A stretch of 64,000 nt of DNA from Archangium lipolyticum (GTDB taxonomy: Bacteria; Myxococcota; Myxococcia; Myxococcales; Myxococcaceae), in assembly GCF_024623785.1 (NCBI RefSeq), contig NZ_JANKBZ010000006.1, forward strand, positions 372,001 to 436,000, given 5' to 3'. The translations under genes were made by a program, and so were the position numbers. Shown piece after piece: positions 56,996-58,520 of the stretch (position 1 is its first letter; each line of letters starts with the position of its first letter). The notes below the pieces were generated by a model. That model did no database searches and was not told the origin of the DNA. It saw only the letters and a program-made list of their open reading frames with translations.

Positions 56996-57820
56996 CTATA
57001 CCGGCACGGCGAAGTCGCGCAGGGCCGCGTTGAGGCTCGTCTTCTTGTCCGTGCTCTCCTTGCGCTGCCCGATGATGAGCGCGCACGGCACCATGTAGCG
57101 GCCGGCGGGGAACTGCTTCTCCTTCATGCCGGGAATCACCACGCTGCGCGCCGGCACCCGGCCCTTGTAGACCTTCTCCTCGGGGCCGGTGACGTCGATG
57201 ATGGGCGTGGAGGCCGTGAGCACCACGTTGGCGCCGAGCACCGCCTCCTCCTCCACCACCACGCCCTCCACCACGATGCAGCGGCTGCCGATGAAGGCCC
57301 GGTCCTCGATGATGACGGGCGAGGCGGTGGGTGGCTCGAGCACCCCGCCCAGTCCGACGCCGCCGGACAGGTGCACGTCACGCCCCACCTGCGCGCAGCT
57401 GCCCACCGTGGCCCAGGTGTCCACCATGGTCCCCGCCCCCACCCGCGCGCCGATGTTCACGTAGCCGGGCATCACCACCGCCCCGCGCTCCACGAAGGCC
57501 CCGTAGCGCACCACGCCCGGCGGCACCACCCGCACGCCCGCTCCCTCCAGCCCCTTCTTCAACGGAATCTTGTCGAAGAACTCGAAGGGCTCCACCTCCA
57601 TCACCTTCATGTCGGAGATGGCGAAGAACAGGAGGATGGCCTCCTTCACCCAGGCGTTCACCTTCCAGCCCTCGGGTCCCTTCTCGGCCACCCGCAGCTC
57701 GCCCGCGTCCAGCAGCGCCAGCGTCTCGCGCACCGCCGCGGCGTACTCCGCTTCCTTCAGCTTCGCCCGGTCCGCGAAGGCCGCGGACACCCTCTGGGAA
57801 AGACTCTCGATGGAGGACAT
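56996..57820 (-). CDS. dapD: tetrahydrodipicolinate N-succinyltransferase
   Basis: A 274-residue left-handed beta-helix enzyme of the DAP pathway, transferring succinate to tetrahydrodipicolinate. It contains GWKVNAWVKEAILLFF, DKIPLKKG, VVMPGYVNIGARVGAGTMVDTWATVGSCAQVG split over 115-147, GVGLGGVLEP, and the hexapeptide repeats. ATG 57820 is preferred to the 6-residue longer form. Next gene upstream on the same strand ends 42 bp away. Its pathway partner dapE is 9 kb off. Confidence 0.95.
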   Translation of the reverse strand: MSSIESLSQRVSAAFADRAKLKEAEYAAAVRETLALLDAGELRVAEKGPEGWKVNAWVKEAILLFFAISDMKVMEVEPFEFFDKIPLKKGLEGAGVRVVPPGVVRYGAFVERGAVVMPGYVNIGARVGAGTMVDTWATVGSCAQVGRDVHLSGGVGLGGVLEPPTASPVIIEDRAFIGSRCIVVEGVVVEEEAVLGANVVLTASTPIIDVTGPEEKVYKGRVPARSVVIPGMKEKQFPAGRYMVPCALIIGQRKESTDKKTSLNAALRDFAVPV

Positions 57821-57862
57821 GGGCGCTCCTTCAAGCACGAAACCCCGCCCGGCGCACCATCC

Positions 57863-58171
57863 TCATGCGTGCGTCCGCGCGGGCTCCGCCAACGGGTGGA
57901 CGGCCGTGATGATCTCCGTGCGAAGCCGGTCTCCCACCGGCTCCACCGCCGCGTGCTCTCGGCCCGAAACGTACACGCCCTGTCCCGTCACCCGCTCCAC
58001 GTGGGACAGGGGCACCGCCCAGAGCTGGCGGGAGAAGCGCCGGCGCACGAACAGGACCGTCTGCCCGATACATGCCACCTTCCCCAGCACCTTCCCGTCC
58101 TGATCGCGCACCTTCATCGCGTGCTGAATCGAGCGCCGCTCGAAGGGGGATTCCATCCAGGCTGCACCCAT
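57863..58171 (-). CDS. PRC-barrel-like small protein, hypothetical
   Basis: A 102-residue protein, mostly beta (AMKVRDQDGKVLGKVACIGQTVLFVRRRFSRQLWAVPLSHVERV), resembling PRC-barrel or DUF2171-type modules that bind partners or membrane surfaces. ATG 58171 begins the likely domain; a start at 58204 would add 11 residues. It may be cotranscribed with dapD and the selenoprotein gene, since spacings are 42 and 94 bp on one strand. Function unknown. Confidence 0.6.
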   Translation of the reverse strand: MGAAWMESPFERRSIQHAMKVRDQDGKVLGKVACIGQTVLFVRRRFSRQLWAVPLSHVERVTGQGVYVSGREHAAVEPVGDRLRTEIITAVHPLAEPARTHA

Positions 58172-58265
58172 GGCCTCACCTCCACTCGCACAAGGTGGGG
58201 CCATGGGCCGCGGCTGAGGAGCGTGGCGCCGGGAAGCGAGCCCCCGGCCGCCCGCATGCCAGGGG

Positions 58266-58520
58266 TCAGGAGCTGGCTGGAGGCGCCTGGCCGCCGAGGA
58301 CCTTGGACACGGCCTCGACGATCTGCTGCTCGGTGGGGAAGGCGAGCGATTCCTTCTTCACCACGGGTCTACCATCCACTTCCACGATGAAGCTGCCGGA
58401 GGGACCGGGTTTCAAATCCGCGTCCAGGTTCAGCTCCTTCTTCAGCACGGCCGCCGCACGGGCGGCCCGAGGCTTGTAGCCTCAGGAATTGCAGTACGTG
58501 ATGGTGATGCGGGCGGCCAT
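58266..58520 (-). CDS. SelW/Rdx-family selenoprotein (UGA-encoded selenocysteine at residue 13)
   Basis: An 84-residue thioredoxin-fold Rdx protein that simple gene callers split at an in-frame UGA (58482-58484). Read through as selenocysteine, the N-terminus is MAARITITYCNS-Sec-GYKPRA, the SelW C-x-x-U redox motif (Cys10, Sec13) after the first beta-strand. The remainder (AAVLKKEL, GSFIVEVDGRPVVKKE, FPTEQQIVEAV) matches the family pattern. A near-perfect AAAGGAGG ribosome binding site lies 6 bp before ATG 58520. A SECIS-like hairpin follows the UGA. Rdx proteins take part in thiol redox control. Insertion requires selA, selB, selC and selD, which are not in this window. Confidence 0.82.
58449..58467 (-). 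promoter_or_regulatory. SECIS-like hairpin after the selenocysteine codon
   Basis: In the mRNA, arms GGCCGCC and GGCGGCC pair perfectly over 7 bp around a 5-base loop CGUGC. The loop begins 21 nt after the UGA, inside the usual bacterial SECIS distance, and has G as its second base, as described for bacterial SECIS loops. GC-rich coding DNA can form hairpins by chance, so SelB binding needs testing. Confidence 0.65.

Follow-up and report, generated by a model that had tools for sequence, protein, structure and literature searches.

A putative SelW-family selenoprotein gene with a bacterial SECIS-like hairpin in Archangium lipolyticum, and its relatives in Myxococcota

The window analysed here, a 64,000-nucleotide stretch of the Archangium lipolyticum genome, carries on its minus strand a gene, selW, that is predicted to encode a true selenoprotein of the bacterial SELENOW-like (Rdx) family, in which the UGA at codon 13 would be read as selenocysteine (Sec) by means of a bacterial SECIS element (bSECIS), yielding a product with a CxxU redox centre; we put the probability of this reading at roughly 0.96. 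An initial annotation had already proposed a true selenoprotein at this place, and the full Sec machinery of the genome, the conserved UGA and a hairpin with a covarying stem all argue for that proposal.

Gene structure and family membership

Read along its own strand, selW opens with an ATG and runs through 12 codons to an in-frame TGA, and then through 71 further codons to a TGA stop (Table 1), with the motif CNS-U-GYKPRA around the predicted Sec and the full sequence MAARITITYCNSUGYKPRAARAAAVLKKELNLDADLKPGPSGSFIVEVDGRPVVKKESLAFPTEQQIVEAVSKVLGGQAPPASS. The plus-strand reading of the same stretch is meaningless. All of the features described by the initial annotation (ATG, TGA, open frame, CNS-Sec-GYKPRA and hairpin) are present, the minus strand being the one point that it had left unstated. 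It had also expected standard gene calling to drop the gene or truncate it to a 60-residue fragment, and a GTG-started frame of exactly this length is found at 58448-58266; for annotation this means that the standard reading drops the first 24 residues, including the CxxU centre. The description of the gene as unannotatable by default was nevertheless too strong, since the family is catalogued and, according to the accessible part of PMC13188914, NCBI carries annotated selenoproteins in substantial numbers. A scan for promoters and terminators returned none on the selW strand.

Table 1. Features of the selW locus (positions refer to the window)
Feature	Position	Strand	Evidence
selW, predicted 84-residue Rdx/SelW-family selenoprotein	58520 (ATG) to 58266 (TGA stop 58268-58266)	minus	translation, TIGR02174, PF10262, model
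Shine-Dalgarno sequence AAAGGAGG	58534-58527	minus	sequence; 6 nt ahead of the selW ATG
selW start codon ATG	58520-58518	minus	sequence
Predicted Sec TGA, in frame, residue 13 (U of CNSU)	58484-58482	minus	TGA at 85 of the order's 87 homologous places
Putative bSECIS hairpin, 7-bp stem with 5-nt loop CGUGC (58460-58456)	58467-58449	minus	pairing, covariation, loop conservation
ORF, 113 aa, weak DUF2171 match below cut-off	57863..58204	minus	downstream of selW; similar ORF in 22 of 86 selW loci
dapD (tetrahydrodipicolinate N-succinyltransferase)	56996..57838	minus	downstream neighbour; in 20 of 86 selW loci

In profile searches with the U given as C, SelW scores 48.1 bits against PF10262 (Rdx; cut-off 22.6) and 46.4 bits against TIGR02174 (cut-off 34.2), and a single Rdx match covers residues 4-72, that is, both sides of the UGA. 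Its score against the equivalog NF041051 (SelTWH_Campy) lies below the cut-off (64.6 vs 88 bits), and it is therefore not filed under that name. The CxxU motif is formed by CNSU at residues 10-13, of which positions 10 and 13 are invariant in a 13-row alignment (U as C). An AlphaFold2 model built from 13 sequences, again with U given as C, has the order of elements E-H-E-E-E-H and a mean pLDDT of 84.6; its best PDB matches in a Foldseek comparison are 3dex, 2oka, 2ojl, 2obk, 2fa8, 2p0g, MIEN1 and mouse SelW, while thioredoxins rank behind these SelW-related chains with weaker scores. The solved structures that come closest in sequence are 2ljk and 3dex. On this model, the protein is predicted to have the thioredoxin-like fold of the SelW family.

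Conservation of the in-frame UGA

A protein search recovered SelW in 86 of the 145 genomes of the order, at 87 places, and the codon at the Sec position is TGA in 85 of them. The remaining two both have TGC, one in the sole copy of genome G038 and the other in a second copy of G086; this Cys paralogue (L088) is encoded on the same strand as the Sec copy and follows it at a distance of about 370 bases. By the initial annotation, an ordinary stop or a frameshift at this position in closely related strains would have refuted the reading; all five same-genus genomes, among them G044 with SelW at C1:12126617, keep the TGA at the Sec position in an open frame. A separate search with only the part after the Sec gave 28 loci, all 28 with TGA at this position, with named carriers that include Archangium lansinium (NZ_JAPNKA010000001.1), Pyxidicoccus, Hyalangium, Myxococcus and Corallococcus. 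Three of these loci stand under ill-fitting titles (Comamonas, a Chloroflexi MAG and a Bifidobacterium breve MAG), which are perhaps mislabelled or contaminated entries.

Across the phylum, TIGR02174 matches occur in 99 of 195 genomes at 101 places, a count that includes four below the family cut-off (G006, G039 and the second copies of G086 and G087, the last a weak one of 22.4 bits); 97 have one TGA inside and four have none. Nine of the 12 TGA places beyond those already read in the search of the order were inspected (eight outside the order plus G028; G160, G187 and G190 lie outside the inspected set), and in all nine the TGA falls on the U of CxxU. G159 has TGT at the Sec position. A scan of viral_contigs turned up no relative.

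The codons downstream of the UGA are under purifying selection: over codons 12-39 after it, comparison of the window gene with its five congeners gives a dN/dS of 0.07-0.28, and the 17 pairs examined altogether span 0.02-0.46. Ahead of the TGA, where nine codons were compared, the values are noisy and range from 0 to 1.5.

Evidence for a SECIS element

The hairpin GGCCGCC-CGUGC-GGCGGCC, with a perfect 7-bp stem and a 5-nt loop, starts 14 nt past the Sec TGA, and the lone 19-nt element folds with -14.5 kcal/mol. The bacterial SECIS model given in the accessible part of PMC13188914 has a loop of 3-9 nt, an upper stem of 4-16 bp, a G within the first two loop positions, a distance of 16-37 nt from UGA to loop and a free energy of at most -7.5 kcal/mol. 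On all five of these points the window hairpin agrees, with a 5-nt loop on a 7-bp stem, G as the second base of CGUGC, 21 nt from UGA to loop and an energy of -14.5 kcal/mol; the SECIS-like hairpin of the initial annotation holds up both in its form and, as set out below, in its covarying stem. The N1-N2 pair across the loop, which the same source describes as present in most bacterial SECIS elements and not required, is absent here (C and C in CGUGC, the commonest loop); some distant rows have GGUCU loops, where the two bases are G and U.

Stability as such does not single the hairpin out. Folded as a single sequence, the region is only moderately unusual, both at 59 nt (z -1.91, equalled by 11 of 200 shuffles) and at 45 nt (z -2.58, equalled by one of 200). 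Averaged over 77 distinct sequences, the free energy of the hairpin (-14.49) lies within the synonymous null (-13.97, sd 0.37; lowest null -14.93), since any stretch rich in Ala and Arg will fold when the DNA is GC-rich, and the hairpin was thus rejected as a free-energy outlier. The nulls drew their codon usage from codons 17-39 of these genes, which hold only 37 Arg codons, none of them CGT. Synonymous entropy, by comparison, falls at codons 6-11 after the UGA to between 0 and 0.9 bits, where Ala/Arg would be expected to show 1.5-2.0, and is about as expected at codon 12 and most later codons, with further dips at Ser 28 and 30. Merging of identical rows had reduced the 85 rows to 77 for the entropy and energy set and to 68 for the fixed-register set, from which L101, L103 and L104 were left out, as their sequence or register differs; all three are restored in the 80-row set described below.

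In the 65 distinct sequences of the order, stem nucleotides 15-21 pair with 27-33 in 97.4% of cells, and all seven pairs are formed in 55 rows. Synonymous resampling of the same sequences gives 74.3% (sd 1.6) and 4.9 full rows (highest 12), and codon shuffling within columns 94.2% (sd 0.4) and 42 full rows (highest 48). Double-change cells in the stem number 19 in this fixed-register set, by the pair counter, against 4.8 after shuffling. When 15 divergent rows are added (80 rows), 94.1% of cells are paired vs 85.8% shuffled, and 35 double-change cells stand against 5.2, with five of the seven pairs changed on both sides, a comparison that relatedness among rows can inflate. Sliding the partner by one or two columns lowers pairing to 23-41%, with two to nine double-change cells; after a slide of three columns, 64-70% of cells still pair, with 20 double-change cells at -3, which is what repeated Ala codons would lead one to expect of a slide by one codon. 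The best uninterrupted stem lies off the expected register in 10 of the 65 order rows and in four of the 15 divergent ones (L129, L137, L141 and L146), most of both kinds having one mismatch at the expected place. Other divergent rows arrive at this hairpin with a different set of bases, for instance GGCGGCG-AGUCU-CGCCGCC (L101), GGCCGCA-AGUCU-UGCGGCC (L150) and CGCCGCA-GGUCU-UGCGGCG (L153).

The loop is conserved as well. Its second base is G in all 80 distinct rows, followed by U in 66 and by G in 14. This G-U or G-G takes up the second and third positions of codon 8, a codon for Arg in 49, Ser in six and Gly in six of 61 distinct rows; that the dinucleotide is kept while the residue changes points to a constraint on the RNA rather than on the protein, and a loop codon switching between Arg, Ser and Gly under this restriction illustrates clearly how a SECIS can constrain protein sequence. 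Altogether, the reading of the hairpin as a putative SECIS element is supported by covariation. Rfam matches up to an E-value of 5 include no SECIS family and one chance match. An alternative hairpin with the UGA inside the stem (UGAGGCU-ACA-AGCCUCG) was set aside, being broken, as judged by eye, in rows with CCC for CCT or with other codons 3-4.

Selenocysteine machinery and its co-occurrence with selW

The genome of the window (12.6 Mb in 75 contigs, 100% complete, 3.78% contamination) was searched for the components of Sec decoding, as suggested by the initial annotation, for which a lack of selB or selC would have refuted the selenoprotein. Since the searches for tRNA-Sec, SelB and SelD gave weak matches in all 14 control genomes too, only matches over the cut-off were counted. 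By this measure the genome holds all four of selA, selB, selC and selD: tRNA-Sec at C11:77955 (73.2 bits, cut-off 47; the sole one of eight matches to exceed it), SelB at C5:60004 (320.4 bits, cut-off 242.25), SelA at C1:531746 (574.8 bits, cut-off 267.9) and SelD at C47:22215 (378.8 bits, cut-off 125). A second tRNA-Sec-like match, of 59.5 bits, was seen about 22 kb from the first in the same-genus genome G047 (C1:5182915-5183007).

The SelD of the window's genome has an in-frame TGA of its own at HCAG-U-AAKI (L106 1531-1533, G000:C47), and a formate-dehydrogenase-like protein has one at ARI-U-HSSTVP (L169 79-3651, G000:C40), each at the position where SelD and FdhA, respectively, usually carry Sec. 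The latter protein matches TIGR01591 in pieces below the cut-off, its start is uncertain and the listed frame crosses another TGA upstream. To judge from these sites, the two are likely to be further selenoproteins of this genome.

In the 145 genomes of the order, with tRNA-Sec counted from 61 bits upwards (118 genomes), 80 have both Sec-SelW and tRNA-Sec, five SelW alone, 38 tRNA-Sec alone and 22 neither (Fisher p 5e-6, uncorrected for kinship). The Rfam cut-off is passed by tRNA-Sec in 124 of the 145, and six genomes at about 48 to 53 bits were left out of the co-occurrence. The five genomes with SelW alone are all drafts, and four of them have SelA over the cut-off; G124, a carrier of Sec-SelW (87% complete, 900 contigs), has neither SelA nor tRNA-Sec over it. 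The 38 genomes with tRNA-Sec alone show that Sec is also kept for reasons other than SelW.

G038, the only genome of the order whose SelW is of the Cys form alone, is without SelA and without tRNA-Sec over the cut-off. At its SECIS loop position (L102/L147) GGTCT is kept, and the hairpin is absent from the predicted best fold; this loop sequence is possibly a fossil SECIS left by a change from Sec to Cys. Another genome, G076, is 100% complete and has no SelW, and no SelA or tRNA-Sec over the cut-off, although tRNA-Sec is present in the six other members of its genus (g7); this is probably a recent loss of the Sec trait.

Genomic neighbourhood

Within the genus, the 113-aa ORF and dapD stand beside selW in all six loci, and a pyridoxal-dependent decarboxylase, encoded on the other strand and divergent from selW, accompanies it in 41 of 86 loci. 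The flanks scanned spanned about 1.5 kb for 30 loci and at most about 2.5 kb for the others, with shorter ones at contig ends, and more distant copies are missed in these counts. Of the possible linkage to dapD raised by the initial annotation, local synteny in some lineages stands, and a functional tie finds no evidence: dapD, found within these short flanks in only 20 of 86 loci, was rejected as a functional partner and is a neighbour of selW by lineage-specific synteny.

Interpretation and alternative explanations

In the proposed mechanism, the hairpin just past UGA13 would act as a bacterial SECIS, whose apical loop would be bound by SelB with GTP and Sec-tRNA-Sec, so that selenocysteine would be delivered at UGA13 in place of termination. 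The product would be an 84-residue thioredoxin-like protein with a CxxU centre, presumably redox-active, and most likely a small thiol/selenol-disulfide exchange protein.

Three other explanations can be weighed against this one. As the standard reading halts after 12 codons, selW could be taken for a pseudogene whose TGA arose by ordinary nonsense mutation or by sequencing error; yet a TGA kept at this very position in 85 of the order's 87 places and at the nine further loci inspected in the phylum search, followed by codons under purifying selection, already refutes this by conservation, and its probability is negligible. Hardly more credible, if very slightly less remote, is that the UGA is a true stop and that a separate 60-residue product is made from the GTG at 58448. 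Such an ORF does exist; its product, however, would by the model be missing the opening strand of the fold together with the CxxU centre, and residues on both sides of the UGA fall into one and the same Rdx match (residues 4-72).

The sequence taken alone would also be compatible with near-cognate suppression, in which Trp or Cys rather than Sec is inserted at the UGA. The presence of the full Sec machinery in the genome, the covariation of the putative SECIS with its conserved loop G-U or G-G, and the replacement of Sec by Cys in a genome without SelA and tRNA-Sec over the cut-off (G038) make this extremely improbable, and Sec insertion through the bSECIS remains the preferred reading of selW.

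A more doubtful proposal concerns the role of the protein. SelW of Myxococcota, being almost only of the Sec form, may not be easily replaced by a Cys form, and might have a specific selenol-dependent role in myxobacteria rather than reflect a casual Cys-to-Sec swap. That the Cys-only G038 has also lost the Sec machinery points towards such a role; the Cys copy beside the Sec copy in G086 and the Cys form of G159 make it less certain. SelW is in any case dispensable, given that 59 of the 145 genomes of the order have none in the protein search. The role of SelW would be open to genetic tests in culturable myxobacteria that have a single Sec-SelW gene along with the complete Sec machinery.

Comparison with known selenoproteins

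In the accessible text of the sources cited here, a SELENOW-like protein (PF10262, CxxU) is listed among the bacterial selenoproteins predicted with high confidence, SelW being one of the few selenoprotein families common to bacteria and animals (PMC13188914), and the SELENOW-like family also appears in the bacterial list of PMC9312934. SelW was represented by 48 sequences in the Sargasso Sea set (PMC1088965) and has been reported from Desulfotalea, Alkaliphilus, Desulfotomaculum and Symbiobacterium; for Anaeromyxobacter dehalogenans, a table of the same paper gives eleven selenoproteins, SelW not among them (PMC1794560). Among the open-access papers searched for selenoproteins or selenocysteine of myxobacteria or deltaproteobacteria, none has a myxobacterial SelW as its subject, to judge by titles and abstract beginnings, and the string "Myxo" is absent from the accessible text of PMC13188914, PMC9312934 and PMC12013277.

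With mouse selenoprotein W (2npb) and the bacterial structures 3dex, 2oka, 2ojl, 2obk, 2fa8 and 2p0g, the SelW model has its fold in common (Foldseek E-values from 7e-7 to 9e-4, query-normalised TM 0.68-0.83), at just 23-35% sequence identity in those alignments. The SECIS of the mouse SelW gene is of the eukaryotic type. The bSECIS of E. coli fdhF is, like the selW hairpin, a short hairpin after the UGA with G-U in its loop; unlike the latter it has a bulged U in the stem, and the loop of selW lies about one codon further from the UGA. With the bacterial SELENOW-like family, selW shares the family itself, the CxxU motif, the in-frame UGA and a predicted bacterial SECIS after the UGA. The gene thus belongs to an already known family of bacterial selenoproteins, in which Sec forms are in general rare relative to Cys forms, as stated in the accessible part of PMC1088965, whereas in Myxococcota Sec is dominant, with one TGA in 97 of 101 matches, and it is this Sec-dominated distribution that is unusual.
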